From positions 1 through 64,000 of the forward strand of contig JAIYAU010000034.1 in the NCBI GenBank assembly GCA_027488865.1: a stretch of DNA of 64,000 nt. The letters are read 5' to 3'. The position numbers and the translations under genes are program-made. Positions 128-26,395 of this stretch are shown piece by piece. Numbering within the stretch: the stretch's first letter is position 1; the number at the start of each line of letters is the position of its first letter. This stretch comes from Cytophagaceae bacterium. Its GTDB lineage: Bacteria > Bacteroidota > Bacteroidia > Cytophagales > UBA9547. A model generated the notes under the pieces. The model was not told where the DNA came from and did not search any database. It was given only the letters and a program-made list of their open reading frames with translations.

Positions 128-661
128 TCAAGTAGTATTGCAATAGCCAAGGGCACTTGTCCACTTCCCTTGCCGCCTTTCGCCAGCGATTACCTTTCTT
201 GGCCATGGAGAGGCGATTGGTTTTCTGTCTAGTGTAATCCTTTGCCTTCTTCTGCACTTGCTCGATGCCAAAGGCTTCATCTGGTGTATTTCCCTCAAAA
301 TCTCTTCCCAATTGGCATATTTGGTCACTCTGGGTGGTACTGGCAAAGGGATGTGAATGCCTTTTAGGAAGTATTGGGTAGCCAACAGATGGACATTTTT
401 CTTCTTTTTCTTCTTGGCAATGGCTGCGTATGCTGTCTTTATCTCAGGCAATAACATGGCTTGGTTGGCATAATGTACTGCATCGCGGAACTTGCTGCGG
501 CTTTTCTGCTGCTTGGGTGTGTTGGAAACAGGGCCTTGGTACCTTGCATAAAAAACAGTTCGTCCGTTTTGCTGGCGAAACACCCAGTTGCCAAACTTGC
601 CACTCAAGCCGTAATTAAGCAATGGGGAGCGGAGTAATTTAGGAAAGTCCTTGTATTTCAT
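128..661 (-). CDS. Basic Bacteroidota-specific hypothetical protein, copy 1
   Basis: 177 residues with no signal peptide or membrane segment. The N-terminal third carries a GKFGNWVFRQQNGR-type motif followed by a basic stretch (KQQKSRSKFRDAV, then a KKKKKK run). This matches a widespread Bacteroidota family of hypothetical proteins known to me only by its pattern (G-x-x-G-N-x-V-F near the start, basic middle). No function is known to me. A paralogue at 23028-23558 is nearly identical through residues 40-105 at both protein and DNA level. The gene is more GC-balanced than its neighbours. A TATGTTTG -7 box lies 68 bases before the ATG. High basic charge would suit nucleic-acid binding, but that is inference only. 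Confidence 0.8.
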   Translation of the reverse strand: MKYKDFPKLLRSPLLNYGLSGKFGNWVFRQQNGRTVFYARYQGPVSNTPKQQKSRSKFRDAVHYANQAMLLPEIKTAYAAIAKKKKKKNVHLLATQYFLKGIHIPLPVPPRVTKYANWEEILREIHQMKPLASSKCRRRQRITLDRKPIASPWPRKVIAGERRQGKWTSALGYCNTT

Positions 662-1014: not shown

Positions 1015-1090
1015 TGATTTTGTTTTTGAATAGTTTCGTTTATCTCTTATATTACGAATGTTTACACAATTGCAAAAACATGCTCGTTAG
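1015..1090 (+). repeat. C1 element: promoter plus palindromic leader
   Basis: First of three C repeats. TTG (1026-1028), 19 bases, then TATATTAC (1048-1055) matches the Bacteroidota -33/-7 promoter spacing. It is followed by an imperfect palindrome at 1054-1087 centred on CAATTG, with arms ACGA/TCGT and ATGTTT/AAACAT. It ends in GCTCGTTA, 48 bases before the ATG of the SPFH-like lipoprotein. C1 lacks the upstream ~95 bp shared by C2 and C3. Confidence 0.75.
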
Positions 1091-1138
1091 CGGTCATTAA
1101 AGGAAATTAACAATCAATTAGTAAAACAAATAATTCAT

Positions 1139-1843
1139 ATGAAAAGACCAATTCTTTACCTCTCAATAGGAATGTTTTTTGCGGCGCTGCAAAGTTGTAA
1201 TTATGCAAAATCTAACCAACAAGTTGTCATTTCAGACGATTGTGGTATGACTTGGAAAAAAATTGAGGCAGGGGATGCTGTTCCGAAAGGAGGATTAAAT
1301 GCTTGCTACATGAAAGTTGTTATTCCAAACTTTCCATTGCAAGGAGACAGTAAATTTATTTCAAATCTAAAAGATAAAGTTAGAGCAAACGTACTTATTG
1401 ATTATGATTACTCTATTACTGACGCATTAGCTTTTATTAAACAAGCTAAATTTTTAGGAAAAGCTAATACAGATGCGGATAATGAAGAAGCGATTGGTAA
1501 TGCTTTTGAGGGTGCTGAAAATATGGTAATTGATAAAAGAATTAAAGACGTAGCGAAAAAAGTTTTCATTAATGCAGACATCGTTGAGCTTGACCAAAGC
1601 GAAATGGAATCTAATCTATTAATCGAAAGTAACAAAATTTTGGAGCCTTTAGGTGTACACTTAAACTTTATAACATTGACATTTGACCTTGATGAACAGA
1701 CAAGACAAGCGATTGATGTTACCACAGCTATGAAGATTTATGAAAGCAAAGGCTTGCAGGAAATTGGTAAGCAGGTAATGACTCAAAGAGCTGGTGCAAC
1801 AAGGATAATAATTGAGAATAAAACTACAACACCAAGCGAATAA
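1139..1843 (+). CDS. SPFH/Band 7-like lipoprotein
   Basis: 234 residues. The N-terminus is a lipoprotein signal with lipobox LQSC (Cys20), so the product should be anchored to a membrane. Residues about 120-215 have the pattern of SPFH (stomatin/prohibitin/flotillin) domains: an ordered series of acidic and basic helices, then the segment LEPLGVHLNFITLTFDLD, then R-x-AI. Most SPFH proteins use a transmembrane anchor, so a lipid anchor is unusual. The role is not known; membrane scaffolding is family knowledge. The gene is bracketed by C1 upstream and A1 downstream, with no partner gene. Confidence 0.6.
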   Translation: MKRPILYLSIGMFFAALQSCNYAKSNQQVVISDDCGMTWKKIEAGDAVPKGGLNACYMKVVIPNFPLQGDSKFISNLKDKVRANVLIDYDYSITDALAFIKQAKFLGKANTDADNEEAIGNAFEGAENMVIDKRIKDVAKKVFINADIVELDQSEMESNLLIESNKILEPLGVHLNFITLTFDLDEQTRQAIDVTTAMKIYESKGLQEIGKQVMTQRAGATRIIIENKTTTPSE

Positions 1844-1920
1844 AATGCACGACAGCCAATATCATATTTATTGAATTTTGCGGATAGTTTATTTGGCGAG
1901 TTTACTTTCTGCCAATCTCA

Positions 1921-2005
1921 TAATACCGTGGCGGTGTTCTTCACCCGACACAACAAGTTGGTTATTAAGGCAGAAAGGGTCATGTGGGACACCTGCCACG
2001 GAGGA
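1921..2005 (+). repeat. A1 element: 80-bp palindromic repeat
   Basis: The outer arms CCGTGGC (from 1926) and GCCACGG (to 2001) extend into GGTGT/ACACC with one bulge, giving a 12-13-bp stem. The interior holds the conserved core TTCACCCGACACAACAAG and GTTGGTTATT. Related copies lie at 2638, 4428 (internally deleted) and 5338. It sits 78 bases after the stop of the SPFH-like gene. Confidence 0.85.
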
Positions 2006-2057
2006 AAAAACACTAAGGACGAAAAATTCTCAAAAATTGAAATAGATTAAACAGAAT

Positions 2058-2579
2058 ATGAATAACATTACAACATTAGAATTTATTGAAAGTATAAATT
2101 TTAAATATTTTGAAACCTATTCATTTCAAAGAAAAGTAGAATTTGATGTTTATGAAACGTTATTTAATAGATATAAACATGATAATAATTCATTGACTGA
2201 AGAAGAAACAATAAAATTTACTAGTTTACGAAAATCAGATTTATATAATCTAAAAAACAATTTCATTTTAACAGATAATAAAAAAATCAATGAAACGGCA
2301 GAACTAATTTTCTCATCTGAAAAATTAACAAATGAGAAAGATGAAATAATTAAAATATTGAAAATTCCATTTAATGGCTATGACTCTTGGATGTGTTCAC
2401 CAATTTATAGAGACGCTATATTGTTTTATGACTCTAACAATAAGCTTATTGACGGAATTAATATTTGTTTTGAATGCTGTAATGTTATAAATCTAAATAA
2501 AAAAGAAATTCTAACAGACAGAATTGTTTATGAAAAATTGAAATTATTTTTACAATCTGTTGGACATAAAATAAACTGA
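2058..2579 (+). CDS. Hypothetical protein with CFEC motif
   Basis: 173 residues, soluble, with no signal peptide. The second half has a Cys/aromatic pattern: SWMC (about residue 113), then RDAILFYDSNNKLI, then ICFECC (about 135-140). This pattern recurs in small orphan proteins of Bacteroidota and Proteobacteria; the paired Cys residues could bind metal, but I do not recognise a function. Base composition is distinctly more AT-rich than the flanking genes, suggesting separate acquisition. It lies between palindromes A1 and A2. Confidence 0.7.
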   Translation: MNNITTLEFIESINFKYFETYSFQRKVEFDVYETLFNRYKHDNNSLTEEETIKFTSLRKSDLYNLKNNFILTDNKKINETAELIFSSEKLTNEKDEIIKILKIPFNGYDSWMCSPIYRDAILFYDSNNKLIDGINICFECCNVINLNKKEILTDRIVYEKLKLFLQSVGHKIN

Positions 2580-2637
2580 AAAATAAAAACTGTTTATGAA
2601 TCCCAAAGCCAATGATTAAAAAGAATTACAACATTCT

Positions 2638-2719
2638 AATACCGTGGAGTGTGTTTTCACCAGACATAACACGTTGGTTAATATGGCAAAATATCAGGTG
2701 GGACACCTGCCACGGAGGG
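2638..2719 (+). repeat. A2 element: 80-bp palindromic repeat
   Basis: Copy of family A with arms CCGTGG at 2642 and CCACGG ending at 2715, and core TTCACCAGACATAACACG. It separates the CFEC protein from the AbiGi-like gene; the ATG of the latter is 31 bases after it. Confidence 0.85.
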
Positions 2720-2750
2720 AGGAACAAGTAAAATTATTTAAAAGGAGATT

Positions 2751-3500
2751 ATGTCTTTAAGCTCAAATTCACTAATACACTTTACGAAAAACAAATCGAC
2801 TTTAAAAGGAATTTTAGAGAATGATTTTAAAATAAAGTATTGCTTAGAAAGAGTTGTAACCAAAAATCATACTTATGACGCTGGTGTTCCTATGGTTTCT
2901 TTTTGCGACATTCCCATCTCTCAAATTAAAGACCATATTAAAAAGTACGGGAGCTACGGAATAGGGCTTAAAAAGAACTGGGCAATAAAAAATGGTCTTA
3001 ATCCAGTATTATATTTAGAACAAGGCTCTAGCCTATCTGATCATACATTAAATACGCTATATGATATAGTTCTACAAAATACCAAAGTGAGTGAACTTTC
3101 GGATTCTGAACTAGCACTAGTAGATATATTCAGGTATATAAAAAACTACGAAGGAGAATTGATTCGAAATGGAGAATCTATAGTTAAAAACTATAGATTC
3201 TCTGATGAAAGGGAATGGCGATATTGTCCAAATAAAAAAGAATTAGGAGGAAGTGAATATTTTATTAATGATGATAATGATTATAAATTAAATAAGAGCA
3301 AATTCAATTCAAAATTATCCTCACTTAGATTACAATTTACTCCAGATGACATTACATATATTATTATTAAAAATGATTCTGAAATTCTTGAATTTATAAG
3401 ACATTTGGAAACAGCAAAGGGCAAAATATACTCTTTGGAACAAATTCGAAGACTTACAACCAGAATTTTGACAGTAGAACAAATAATGACAGATTTTTAA
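2751..3500 (+). CDS. AbiGi-like abortive-infection protein
   Basis: 249 residues, cytoplasmic. The start SSNSLIHFTKNKSTLKGIL and the following VPMVSFCDIPISQIKDHIK and YGSYGIGLKKNWAIKNGLN segments match the AbiGi (PF10899-type) pattern as I remember it. They are followed by a conserved DEREWRY segment (about residue 156). In lactococcal AbiG, AbiGi acts as antitoxin to the nucleotidyltransferase-like AbiGii in an abortive phage-defence system. No AbiGii-like gene is adjacent; the next gene is a 78-residue protein of another type. So this is either a solitary family member with its own activity or a relic. Confidence 0.7.
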   Translation: MSLSSNSLIHFTKNKSTLKGILENDFKIKYCLERVVTKNHTYDAGVPMVSFCDIPISQIKDHIKKYGSYGIGLKKNWAIKNGLNPVLYLEQGSSLSDHTLNTLYDIVLQNTKVSELSDSELALVDIFRYIKNYEGELIRNGESIVKNYRFSDEREWRYCPNKKELGGSEYFINDDNDYKLNKSKFNSKLSSLRLQFTPDDITYIIIKNDSEILEFIRHLETAKGKIYSLEQIRRLTTRILTVEQIMTDF

Positions 3501-3518
3501 TAAGTGGAGAAGAAAATA

Positions 3519-3755
3519 ATGCAAAAATTACTTGAGCTACTATGGCTCCAATCAGACAATTGTTCAAGTCCTATTGAGAACGCATGGTTTCTAATACAAG
3601 AGACTTCAAAGATGACCGGGACAAAGAAAAACGTAGTAATGGAGCATTTTGATAAACTTATAGAAGGAGAAATCATTGAGAAAAATTCTGACGAACCATT
3701 ACTATTTCAGTTTACTAATACGGGACGAAAAGTAATATCAAGCAGTGACCCCTAA
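3519..3755 (+). CDS. Small hypothetical protein, possibly winged-helix-like
   Basis: 78 residues from the ATG at 3519; an in-frame GTG at 3504 would add five residues. It begins 18 bases after the AbiGi-like stop, so co-transcription is likely. The helical pattern ending in FDKLIEGEIIEKN and LFQFTNTGRKVI resembles the recognition helix and wing of small winged-helix proteins, suggesting a regulator or cognate small partner, but this is weak. Its stop codon lies inside the left edge of repeat C2. Confidence 0.55.
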   Translation: MQKLLELLWLQSDNCSSPIENAWFLIQETSKMTGTKKNVVMEHFDKLIEGEIIEKNSDEPLLFQFTNTGRKVISSSDP

Positions 3756-3925
3756 TAGCCCTAGTTAACGATGGCTTCCGAGAAGTGCATTTGCAACGCT
3801 ACTTATAATCGTTCCAGCCCAACTGCGCAGCTTGTTCAAGTACGAAATGGTTTTTGTTTTTGAATACTTTCGTTTATCTCTTATATTACGAGTATGTACA
3901 CAATTGCGTAAACACGCTCGTAAGC
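3746..3925 (+). repeat. C2 element: long promoter-palindrome repeat
   Basis: It begins with GACCCCTAATAGCCCT and shares about 150 bases with C3 (5989-6141, opposite strand), including GCTTGTTCAAGTACGAA and the promoter-like TTG (3860-3862)-N19-TATATTAC (3882-3889). The palindrome at 3888-3921 is centred on CAATTG with arms ACGAG/CTCGT. It ends 27 bases before the next ATG. The left end overlaps the last codons of the preceding gene. Confidence 0.8.
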
Positions 3926-3951
3926 CCCAATTTTAAAACCACACGAAAACT

Positions 3952-4362
3952 ATGAAAAACTGGAATAAGACAGGAAAAATTAAGGCGGTTATTCTCGGAC
4001 TTTTGGCATTGCCAAATTTACTTATACCCATCGGCGCGACAGGAAAGTTTGAACTTGTGATGATTTTAATGCCTTTGTTTTTTGGCAGCATTGCGATTCC
4101 TTTAATTGCAAAATTTAACGGAGCAGTTCTTGGACGAGAAATTATTAAACCGACATGGAATGACAACCCGCTTATGCTGTACCGACCGCTTTCGTTTTTT
4201 CATTTTGGTGCATTCTTCTTTATAACAGTTGGTCTAAGTTTACTTTTAGGGTCAGCGATAAAATTTCAAACGCTTAGCTTTTTCGCACTGCCAGTAATTT
4301 CATTTGGGCTTGGAATATTAATAGGCATTTGGCTTACACTAAAATGGACAAAATCAATATAA
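3952..4362 (+). CDS. Small four-helix membrane protein
   Basis: 136 residues with four hydrophobic stretches (about residues 8-28, 32-50, 74-94 and 106-128), so an inner-membrane protein. I recognise no family or catalytic motif. It is expressed, if at all, from the promoter inside C2 and is followed by the shortened palindrome A3, giving a C-gene-A unit like the SPFH-like gene. Confidence 0.65.
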   Translation: MKNWNKTGKIKAVILGLLALPNLLIPIGATGKFELVMILMPLFFGSIAIPLIAKFNGAVLGREIIKPTWNDNPLMLYRPLSFFHFGAFFFITVGLSLLLGSAIKFQTLSFFALPVISFGLGILIGIWLTLKWTKSI

Positions 4363-4402
4363 TTTGCAAAAACCAAAGACCTTATCTAGCCTCCATAAAA
4401 GT

Positions 4403-4426
4403 AGTAAAAAAAGGCCATCCAAATTT
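4403..4426. terminator. Half of an intrinsic terminator (truncated)
   Basis: The A-run plus GGCCATCCAAATTTG matches the plus-strand left half of the GH8 terminator at 6141-6177, but the complementary right half is missing. Element A3 begins where the right arm should start, as if an insertion or recombination replaced it. Confidence 0.55.
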
Positions 4427-4427
4427 G

Positions 4428-4462
4428 TAATACCGTGCCAGGTGGGACACCTTGCACTGGGA
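4428..4462 (+). repeat. A3 element: internally deleted palindrome
   Basis: Only the two outer parts of family A remain (TAATACCGTG ... AGGTGGGACACCT). The ~45-bp central core is absent. It lies between the convergent membrane-protein and DUF416-like genes. Confidence 0.7.
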
Positions 4463-4508
4463 CTAGAATAGCAGGAAAGTCCTAGAATTCCAGTTTACCT
4501 TTCATAAC

Positions 4509-5108
4509 TTAAGGCACAATTAATCCAATATTGCTTTCGTATTTTTTGTTTAATGTGTCAGTAATAAGCTTGTCTATATCATTTTCAGCTATGATTCTTT
4601 TTAATAAGGTCTTTTGATAAAGCAGTTCTTTTTGCACTTCAGCTGACTCATATGCTCTCATTTCTAACTCATCTTCAGGATATTTAGATGATAATTCCTC
4701 CATTTTATATATCAATACTGTATTAATTGACATTTCAGAGGCACTTATAATGGAGTCTGATTCATTTTCAAGCAAATAAGAAAACATATCATAACAACAT
4801 GCACAAGCGTCAAGAGCAAATGTAGAAAAAACAGAAGGATAATCTTCTGAATGAGGAGCAAGGTCTAATACTATATTTTTAGATTCCTCAATTAAATCAG
4901 GGCTAACAAGTACATTATTTGTTTTTACATAATCAACAGCTAATAAAAACAAATCCTCTAAGTTTTTAACATCCCCAAATCCTTCTGTTACTACAAAATA
5001 ATTATAGTTTATTTGCAATCGCCTGGCTAAGTGCATTATAAATAAAGCACCCTTTCTTTCTATCAACTGCAAAATCAGTTCAATAATTTCTTCCTTTTCT
5101 TTTTCCAT
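4509..5108 (-). CDS. DUF416 (YjaG)-like protein
   Basis: 199 residues, soluble, acidic, all-helical in appearance. The order of features follows YjaG-family proteins as I know them: a conserved DLAPHSEDY segment (about residue 84), FALDACACCYDMFSYLLE (about 97-114), then a helical tail. The family has no assigned function. The start EKEKEEIIELILQLIERK differs from classic YjaG, so this may be a divergent member. A 3' gene remnant ends 15 bases upstream. Confidence 0.6.
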   Translation of the reverse strand: MEKEKEEIIELILQLIERKGALFIMHLARRLQINYNYFVVTEGFGDVKNLEDLFLLAVDYVKTNNVLVSPDLIEESKNIVLDLAPHSEDYPSVFSTFALDACACCYDMFSYLLENESDSIISASEMSINTVLIYKMEELSSKYPEDELEMRAYESAEVQKELLYQKTLLKRIIAENDIDKLITDTLNKKYESNIGLIVP

Positions 5109-5123
5109 TTTGTATCTAATTTA

Positions 5124-5249
5124 TCATCGTGTAGTTGATCCTGATTTTAAAGCTCCAGTAGCTGTGCCATTCCCTTTTACTTGTGCAGCTTTTTTATCAT
5201 AAACTTCAATAAATGGTATTTGGATAGGAGCATCTTTAGCTTGACAAAT
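5124..5249 (-). pseudogene. 3' remnant of a lost gene
   Basis: On the minus strand an open frame with no start codon runs from just after an in-frame TAA (5252-5250) to TGA at 5124. It encodes about 41 residues, including PIQIPFIEVYDKK and GNGTATGALKSGSTTR. Codon pattern and composition look coding. It ends 15 bases before the DUF416-like ATG, a spacing typical of an operon. The parent family is not recognised. Confidence 0.5.
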
Positions 5250-5337
5250 TTAAATGGTGAAAATGTGTGCCCTTGTTTGAGTCTCCACATGTCTCCACAA
5301 ACAAGCATTTAAGTCGTTTTTGAATGCAAAACCCAAC

Positions 5338-5420
5338 TACCCTCGCGGATGTCTTCACCCGACATAACAAGTTGGTTATTATGGCAATAAGTGTCAGGTG
5401 GGACAACTGTCACGAAGGGA
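5338..5420 (+). repeat. A4 element: palindromic repeat
   Basis: Full-length family A copy with degenerate outer arms (CCTCGCGG/CACGAAGG) but an intact core TTCACCCGACATAACAAG then GTTGGTTATTATGGCA. It lies 3' of the minus-strand DUF6896-like gene, so that gene is also flanked C (5') and A (3'). Confidence 0.8.
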
Positions 5421-5448
5421 GCACCATCTGTCAAGCTAGCACTAATGT

Positions 5449-5979
5449 TTATTCGGAGCCGAAAAGTTTCTGTAACCACGTCCGCCTCGCTTTTGGCAAG
5501 CTGCTGTTACCAGTAGTTTTTCTCTCCGTCTCCTCTATTATTTCTGTCTTTAACGTGTCTGTAAAAAAATAAAGTGTCGTTGAGTTAGCCAATTTTGGTT
5601 TTGCAATAACTCCATTTTTTACGAGTTCATTAAATTCTCTTTCTATTTTCTCTTTGTCTTTAAAGTCAGGATATTTGTTGCGTTGGTTTTGGATAAAGTT
5701 TGTCAGTCTCCATAAGTCAAAACCATCGTGTCTTGGTTCAGGAAAATATGCAAAATCAAAGTCAACAATTTTGTCTTTGAAATGAGCAGCTAATCCAATG
5801 CCGTGAAAGGCATAAAAATAAAGTCCTTCTTCAATTAATTTTCCTGTCTGTTCGTATCGTCTGCTATGCCAACCTTCAAGAATGTCATTTACTTTGTATT
5901 TGTCTTTGAAAATACCTACAGCTTTGTCAGCTCCTGCTTGATAATCTTTAATTATGTCGATAAGAGTTGTAGTCGTCAT
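5449..5979 (-). CDS. DUF6896-like hypothetical protein
   Basis: 176 residues, cytoplasmic. The central part has FHGIGLAAHFKDKIVDFDF and RHDGFDLWRLTNFIQ (about residues 58-98), a pattern I associate with DUF6896 proteins found singly in accessory regions. No catalytic residues can be assigned. The C-terminal 30 residues (KTTGNSSLPKARRTW) look non-conserved. The C3 element supplies the promoter, 10 bases upstream of the ATG. It stands alone between repeats. Confidence 0.6.
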   Translation of the reverse strand: MTTTTLIDIIKDYQAGADKAVGIFKDKYKVNDILEGWHSRRYEQTGKLIEEGLYFYAFHGIGLAAHFKDKIVDFDFAYFPEPRHDGFDLWRLTNFIQNQRNKYPDFKDKEKIEREFNELVKNGVIAKPKLANSTTLYFFTDTLKTEIIEETERKTTGNSSLPKARRTWLQKLFGSE

Positions 5980-5988
5980 AAAATTACT

Positions 5989-6141
5989 GGTAACGAGCGT
6001 TTTTACGCAATTACGTTAAAATCCGAAATATAAGAGATAAACGAAACTATTCAAAAACAAAAACCCACTTCGCACTTGAACAAGCCACGCATTCGGTTGG
6101 AAAGATTATAACCCTCATTGCAAGGAGGGCTATTGGGGTCA
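5989..6141 (-). repeat. C3 element: long promoter-palindrome repeat (inverted)
   Basis: Reverse-strand copy of C. It starts at GACCCCAATAGCCCT directly against the T-run of the GH8 terminator, then GCTTGTTCAAGTGCGAA, then TTG (6054-6052)-N19-TATATTTC (6032-6025). The palindrome has arms ATTTTAACG/CGTAAAAA around AATT and the element ends GCTCGTTA. The arm sequences differ from C1 and C2 but pairing is retained. Confidence 0.8.
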
Positions 6142-23027: not shown

Positions 23028-23558
23028 ATGGAACGTGATCGATTGGAGTATCTCATCAAAGCTGGATTATTAAAAGGTGTGGTGGGCACATTTGGCAACT
23101 GGGTGTTTCGTCGGCAACAGGGCGGGCACATCGTGCACTATCTAAAGTACTCAGGGCCAGTATCCAACACACCCAAGCAACAGAAAAGCCGCAGCAAGTT
23201 CCGCGACGCAGTACACTATGCCAACCAAGCTATGTTAGTTCCCGAAATAAAGGCAGCATACACTGCTACGGCCAAAAATAAAAAGAAGAATAACGTTCAT
23301 TTGTTGGCTACGCAATACTTCCTTAAAGGTATTTATATTCCGTTGCCAGTGACCTTAGCAACAAAATATGCTAGTTGGGAGGCCATTTTGCAAGAAATAC
23401 ATCTGATGCAACCCCATTTGCCCAGTAAAGGCAGAAGAAGGTCAAGAGCCTCAAAAGTAATAAAACCAGCTTTGCCTCTCTTGCAACGTAAAGTAAAGAT
23501 TAAGGATACCAAACCATGTACTCGTTTAGGCAAGCTCAGCTTTTACAACACGACCTAG
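23028..23558 (+). CDS. Basic Bacteroidota-specific hypothetical protein, copy 2
   Basis: 176 residues. Paralogue of 128-661: GTFGNWVFRRQQGG, then an almost identical block from GPVSNTPKQQKSRSKFRDAV through HLLATQYFLKG, while the N-terminal 15 residues and the basic tail diverge; both end in YNTT or CNTT. The DNA of the shared block is also nearly identical, so duplication is recent or conversion is active. No known catalytic motif. Base composition is GC-balanced like copy 1 and the RNA-repair genes. It is flanked by B1 and B2 repeats. Confidence 0.8.
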   Translation: MERDRLEYLIKAGLLKGVVGTFGNWVFRRQQGGHIVHYLKYSGPVSNTPKQQKSRSKFRDAVHYANQAMLVPEIKAAYTATAKNKKKNNVHLLATQYFLKGIYIPLPVTLATKYASWEAILQEIHLMQPHLPSKGRRRSRASKVIKPALPLLQRKVKIKDTKPCTRLGKLSFYNTT

Positions 23559-26153: not shown

Positions 26154-26264
26154 ATAATTTTTACTAAAGTTTTACATCTACAGGAAGTTGGCGATTTCGG
26201 AGCACAAAACTAACTGCCACCACTGAGCTTGAGCCGAAGCACAAAGCTTCGTTTAACCACAAAC

Positions 26265-26395
26265 CCTCTAGTACAGAAGTTTACCACCGTACCCAAAACG
26301 TTATAGGAACTTTGTTCCGATTGTTGCATAACAATACCATGACCTCTATCCAAAAAACATCACATCCATTAGCCCCATATGCCCAGCATAGATCC
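26265..26395 (+). repeat. B4 element: double-hairpin repeat, first stem decayed
   Basis: The first hairpin is degenerate (CAGAAGTTTACCACCG), the second (GGAACTTTGTTCC) is intact, and part of the tail shared with B1 and B5 follows. It lies between two minus-strand genes. Confidence 0.8.

Follow-up and report, generated by a model that had tools for sequence, protein, structure and literature searches.

Between positions 1,015 and 6,141 of a 64,000-nt stretch of DNA from a Cytophagaceae bacterium (the window), unrelated small genes are interspersed with copies of two repeated elements, C and A. This layout raises the question of whether the genes are cassettes of an integron-like system and, if so, which sequences mark their ends and which recombinase served them. 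Our answer, based on sequence comparisons, is that the segment very probably stems from an integron-like system of Bacteroidota and survives as a decayed piece of it; the arrays of the system look fossil in this genome and alive in its relatives.

Genes and repeated elements of the window

The features discussed below are the following.
1018-1098 (+): element C1, a promoter-like 5' half and a putative attI-like hairpin
near 1085-1089: probable cassette boundary of C1, within CTCG|TTAGC
1139-1843 (+): cassette gene 1, lipoprotein-like, without Pfam match
~1857-1917 (+): attC-like left arm of cassette 1, resembling the attC at contig C3
1918-2004 (+): element A1, dispersed palindrome in the probable loop region of the cassette 1 attC
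2058-2579 (+): gene of a small CFEC protein with no function assigned, a probable cassette
2637-2720 (+): element A2
2751-3500 (+): AbiGi-family gene, candidate abortive-infection protein (Pfam 4.3e-38, PADLOC 1.2e-45)
3748-3815 (+): REP-like repeat directly 5' of element C2, of the type of the RAYT-flanking repeats at contig C40 (by-eye comparison)
3852-3932 (+): element C2, putatively attI-like, like C1
3952-4362 (+): membrane-protein cassette gene
4425-4465: short A-like hairpin of 41 nt, 63% identical to A across 38 nt
4509-5108: DUF416 gene (Pfam)
5326-5430 (+): element A4, with the long A copy at 5332-5420; it splits the attC that belongs to the DUF6896 cassette
5393-5515 (-): degenerate attC-like site, in which A4 takes the place of the right half (model R3, 22.7 bits, E 0.0076; E 0.147 when the model is run genome-wide)
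5449-5979 (-): DUF6896 gene (Pfam)
5994-5506 (-): DUF6896 cassette, the best preserved, 489 nt, ends 13/14 complementary
5982-6062 (-): element C3, putatively attI-like, 5' of the DUF6896 gene
~6098-6140: second copy of the REP-like repeat
26159-26289 (-): second attC-like site of the window, with degenerate ends (model R3, 35.8 bits), within a further series of small genes (21.9-27.1 kb)

The original prediction placed a C element directly 5' and an A palindrome directly 3' of three genes. Three copies of C, 81-89% alike, do precede the genes starting at 1139, 3952 and 5979, and the CFEC gene lies, as described, between A1 and A2. The three A copies are present as well, 3' of two C-headed genes and of the CFEC gene, but directly 3' of the membrane-protein gene there is only the 41-nt hairpin. 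The third gene and its C3 are indeed on the opposite strand, but A4 is on the + strand, so A ignores gene orientation. Gene contents are unrelated, as had been claimed (AbiGi family, DUF416 and DUF6896, besides genes that reach no Pfam cut-off); the 'SPFH' label given to the first gene lacks Pfam support. Two further features recur around small genes. A gene with no convincing Pfam match (..GNWVFRQQNGRTVFYARYQGPVSNTPKQQKSRSKFRDAVHYANQAM..) repeatedly adjoins recombinase remnants and C-like sites (window 128-661 (-) and 23028-23558 (+); L054, L056, L058, L060), and a double-hairpin repeat, GCGGAAGT..ACTTCCGTACCCAAAACGT..GGAACTTTGTTCC, lies on the 3' side of several small genes (window 22.7, 23.7, 24.6, 26.3 and 27.1 kb).

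Searched with a model of element C, the 4.3-Mb genome has 22 matching places. Many of these matches cover the 3' half alone (...GGATATTTACGCAATTGCGTAAACACAATCGTTA), all sequences diverge right after it, and at many of the places a small gene begins within a few tens of bases past this half. At about ten C-like places conservation extends over the 150 nt upstream, which contain the end of a decayed tyrosine recombinase gene (..SSKTTEIYTHY..); intact genes ending in nearly the same way (..TTEIYTHVTTKGFDQIVSPLDQLDI) occur in two genera of the family. The recombinase is thus not foreign to the cassette system: some ten loci of the genome keep remnants of its 3' end, in each case directly 5' of a C-like site. 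In relatives, the primary attI-like site adjoins the recombinase gene: at most loci a hairpin followed by a GTT boundary (e.g., ATACGCAACTAGTTGCGTATACACACACGTTAGC) comes just 3' of the intact gene or of the SSB gene following it. The site varies, since a strict scan detects a perfect inverted repeat before the first GTT boundary at 31 of 64 named loci, compared with 9% of control chunks. Because recombinase remnants precede C, and a hairpin and GTT follow the intact recombinase in relatives, we read C as an attI-like site, i.e., the 5' cassette boundary, with a hairpin ending in CG|TT. Its 5' half resembles what we take to be a Bacteroidota promoter (TTTG, 19 nt, TATATTnCG). This half was not seen beside the recombinase in relatives, and a search of 291 genomes for C with the promoter half gave, outside its own genome, short matches only.

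Cassette ends and attC-like sites

The best-preserved cassette, that of DUF6896, starts with GTTACCAGTA-A-TTT (equivalently G|TTACCAGTAATTT) and finishes with AAA-C-TACTGGTAAC (equivalently AAACTACTGGTAAC), and an attC arm comes next. Reverse-complemented, the 14 bases that follow the core recur at the far end of the gene in this cassette and at seven other loci; for cassettes 1 and 3 of the window, the search for complementary ends gave no clean 3' end. The arrays of relatives follow a sharper rule: ten paired end bases are succeeded by a fixed A.C mispair and by A/T pairs, so that single-gene cassettes begin with G|TTnnnnnnn-A-TTTT and end with AAAA-C-nnnnnnnAAC. Across the named loci, perfect 10-bp end pairs number 82 in the 242 kb lying 3' of the recombinase, against 48 in the 564 kb lying 5', and the 11th pair is A.C in 54/82 of the former and 4/48 of the latter.

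Successive cassettes in relatives are mostly 115-120 nt apart, and several arguments favour the view that these spacers are the centres of attC-like sites. First, they align and fold into one stem, with compensatory changes in 15 of its 16 pairs. Second, pairing in this stem reaches 89.7% and drops to 34-44% when partners are slid by one to three bases. Third, covariation is 0.766, compared with 0.192 after shuffling. The stem also has fixed mispairs, and an A.C mispair lies inside it at 17 of 22 sites. Imperfect hairpins with unpaired bases thus separate the cassettes clearly in relatives and weakly in the window, whose genome has about a dozen attC-like sites, most of them weak. Rfam contains no family matching these sites. 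The original prediction missed the site at 5393-5515 and the left arm at ~1857-1917, both interrupted by A.

A covariance model of attC, run on 34 named loci up to 10 kb either side of the recombinase, gave 100 matches: 97 are on the recombinase strand, none is located 5' of the recombinase, and the three on the minus strand mirror sites already counted. An ORF precedes the site in 65 of 70 cases, at a median gap of 13 nt. Relatives therefore have single-gene cassettes, in one orientation, adjoining the recombinase. In one genome (G044), two arrays (L126, L127) contain several near-identical short cassettes of ~241 nt (GTTAGGCACAATTTTAAT..), some of them in tandem.

Related cassettes are found at different sites in different genomes. 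A gene 47% identical to the DUF6896 gene of the window is a cassette in a genome of another family (L238, 1151-2003), where a strong attC site lies on either side of it and the recombinase gene, on the same contig and strand, is 5.3 kb upstream. Another gene, 82% identical between two genera, follows an attC at contig C46 in the genome of the window and a degenerate attI-like site elsewhere. Looking at genes between boundaries in related genomes, as had been suggested, thus revealed differing contents; no cassette was shared at 1e-8 among 56 cassette proteins of the named loci. Directly after the cassette gene at contig C46, beside GCACATAATCGAG, the opposite strand has a stretch that looks like a group II intron 3' end (L029, ~660-780). 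Group IIC introns target attC.

What, then, is element A? Its hairpins have z-scores of -3.25 (A1) and about -1.9 (A2 and A4). Aligned with the left arm of the attC at contig C3, the 62 nt preceding A1 score 80, far above the best of 300 shuffles (46), so A1 sits where the attC of cassette 1 has its loop; matches of this arm in the genome are at C3:4487, C38:130675 and C38:52991. A good copy of A at contig C22, between unrelated genes, indicates that A is not tied to cassettes. Because A lies inside attC sites and is also present elsewhere, we rejected it as the 3' boundary. The idea of integron-like cassettes is hence retained, with C as their 5' boundary, but their real 3' boundary is the attC-like site.

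A belongs with the other dispersed palindromes of the genome, some of which flank RAYT genes. One further family of palindromes, 71 nt long and centred on CTGTGTGCCACAG, has an A-like end (..GGAGGAA; L048 1201-1275 and 11253, L049 3684, L063). The genome has nine RAYT-like (PF01797) matches (contigs C38, C40, C60, C36, C27 and C2), two with internal stops, and several of these genes are flanked by their own distinct REP-like hairpins. A and the repeats near element C2 resemble RAYT/REP (BIME) systems in being short dispersed palindromes in a genome with RAYT genes, but REP repeats define no cassettes, and no A was found beside the RAYT gene at the seven loci examined, of nine. We also rejected RAYT as the motor of the cassettes, finding no link to C or to cassette ends. 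One could still suppose that C and A are both plain dispersed repeats (REP/BIME or MITE, moved by Y1/HUH RAYT) near small genes that are no cassettes. The RAYT matches, the hairpins that several have, the abutment of one such repeat type on element C2, the A copy outside any cassette and the scatter of several palindromic families all agree with this as far as A and the REP-like repeats are concerned. Yet we regard it as very unlikely for the segment as a whole, being already contradicted for C and the cassette ends: complementary ends, the mispair at position 11, the strand bias and the location of attC exclusively 3' of the recombinase are all left unexplained.

The recombinase and its relation to IntI

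Related genomes, examined for a recombinase as the original prediction had advised, have a tyrosine recombinase at the head of their arrays. It includes catalytic and SAM-like domains (Pfam), and the catalytic residues of tyrosine recombinases (R, K, HxxR, GH, Y) are invariant in alignments of eight and of fifteen proteins. The best PDB match, by sequence and by predicted fold, is the IntI of V. cholerae (2a3v); with a pLDDT of 78 and a pTM of 0.43, the structural model was used for domain folds alone. The genome of the window has 3' remnants only, with no intact recombinase of the family. Its two PF00589 matches above threshold (298 and 293 aa) were rejected as the recombinase of the system: both look like ordinary XerC/D by eye and neither adjoins an attC match.

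The segment could instead be the remnant of a canonical integron, a CALIN left by a true IntI, in which case only the host record would be new. IntI being the closest solved structure, and attC-like arrays being laid out as in integrons, would fit. We nevertheless consider this highly unlikely and rejected canonical IntI, given both the scores and a missing insertion. The profile of the IntI family (TIGR02249) has a cut-off of 265 bits, which the recombinases P0001 and P0002 miss with 215 and 221 bits, and none of the 291 genomes of the order encodes an IntI above the curated NCBIfam cut-off. The segment specific to IntI has ~27 residues in the recombinase and 70 in V. cholerae IntI, and P0001 spans 262 codons where IntI1 spans 304. 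The additional domain around patch III is thus missing from the aligned segment. This domain has been described as necessary for integron-mediated recombination (PMC9668308). Extremely unlikely, and the least probable of all, is a third alternative, in which the genes were carried by an ordinary integrative element or a defence island that has decayed, and C is a promoter that they share. The AbiGi-type cargo and the promoter-like half of C might suggest it, but complementary ends at eight loci already contradict it, and so do the cassette ends, the attC sites and, at many loci, a sharp CG|TT boundary past which the sequences diverge at once.

The integron-like system that we favour shares with integrons, including those whose integrase points towards the array, 1) a tyrosine recombinase at the array head, nearest to IntI in fold and sequence, with the primary site beside it; 2) single-gene cassettes oriented one way round; and 3) an imperfect hairpin at cassette 3' ends, with AAC...GTT cores. 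It differs in 1) a recombinase without the additional domain of IntI and with ~240 extra N-terminal residues; 2) an SSB gene that is often co-encoded; 3) an attI-like site that is a hairpin; and 4) cassette ends complementary across 10 bp and followed by the fixed A.C mispair. As in a CALIN, attC-like sites are present in the genome of the window and an intact recombinase of this kind is missing, but remnants of its own recombinase lie 5' of the first sites, and the sites are mostly single or in small groups rather than in long clusters.

In the predicted model, the N-terminal ~240 residues fold into three similar units. One member of the recombinase family scores 31.5 bits for HARP, above the Pfam cut-off of 25; other members stay below. 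HARP domains bind forked DNA in SMARCAL1, and our guess is that the HARP-like repeats grip the folded attC. The co-encoded SSB is suggestive, since attC hairpins are known to be melted by SSB, which IntI displaces (PMC8946536).

Spread in Bacteroidota and the tet(X3) module

At a threshold of E 1e-5, attC matches are present in 184 of the 291 genomes of the order (93 of 115 genera), whereas relatives of the recombinase occur in 107; genomes with attC thus outnumber those with a close relative of the recombinase, the thresholds being different. Named carriers of the recombinase and arrays include Arundinibacter roseus, Algoriphagus, Belliella, Spirosoma, Runella, Solitalea and Kordia, and the intact systems of relatives have the order recombinase, often an SSB gene, hairpin site and array of single-gene cassettes. 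One record titled Bifidobacterium breve (L138, CALPQG020000216.1) encodes a Bacteroidota recombinase; its title is probably wrong. Integrons have been regarded as rare in the phylum, and for Bacteroidetes proper IntegronFinder 2.0 reports a single complete one, that of Salinibacter ruber M1 (PMC9024848). We found no description of Cytophagales integrons in the literature, where preprints and most subscription journals were outside the search, so a prior description is possible.

If the system works as we infer, the recombinase would take folded single-stranded attC sites and recombine them at G|TT, circular cassettes would be inserted at the attI-like site beside its gene, and SSB and the HARP-like N-terminal repeats would handle the single strands. 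The C elements of the window would then be attI-like sites with their first cassettes, stranded once the recombinase was reduced to 3' remnants, and A and the REP-like repeats would have landed later in and around these cassettes. We give somewhat better than an even chance to the wider proposal that Bacteroidota have their own widespread lineage of integrons, overlooked because the recombinase lacks the IntI domain, in which HARP-like repeats and a dedicated SSB handle folded single-stranded sites marked by fixed A.C mispairs and 10-bp ends, and which is a source of clinical resistance genes such as tet(X3). Should the system work in the way described, a major phylum would have a common system of gene capture missed by current tools, and integron-type recombination could do without the additional domain. 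Many cassette genes, among them defence genes like AbiGi, would also become searchable.

The proposal also offers a concrete origin for the module carrying tet(X3). A truncated recombinase of the family is present in 48 Acinetobacter plasmid records, and tet(X3) is directly 3' of it in the four plasmid records examined, three from Acinetobacter and one from an uncultured bacterium (L232 2916-5060, and L234, L235 and L236, covering Acinetobacter plasmids and pHH1107). One tet(X) paper names the recombinase xerD and describes the module, xerD-tet(X3)-res, as borne by ISCR2; another tet(X) paper makes no mention of the recombinase. The module resembles our system in having a truncated recombinase 65-67% identical to P0001, a hairpin with CTTG|TTATG, then tet(X3), AAAAAACGGCTACTAAC and the left arm of an attC-like site, and differs from it in this ISCR2 context and in the missing right half of the attC. 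Its 3' side is uncertain, because the attC model gives a weak match of 16.7 bits in the record ending there and none in the others. Judging from this arrangement, tet(X3) may be one cassette of the system, captured as a first cassette. In the plasmid whose sequence we followed in detail, the hairpin TATACGCCATTTGGCGTATA and G|TTATGTGCCATTTTT lie between the recombinase and tet(X3), and the 3' sequence, AAAAAACGGCTACTAAC and the attC-like left arm, is the same in a second plasmid.
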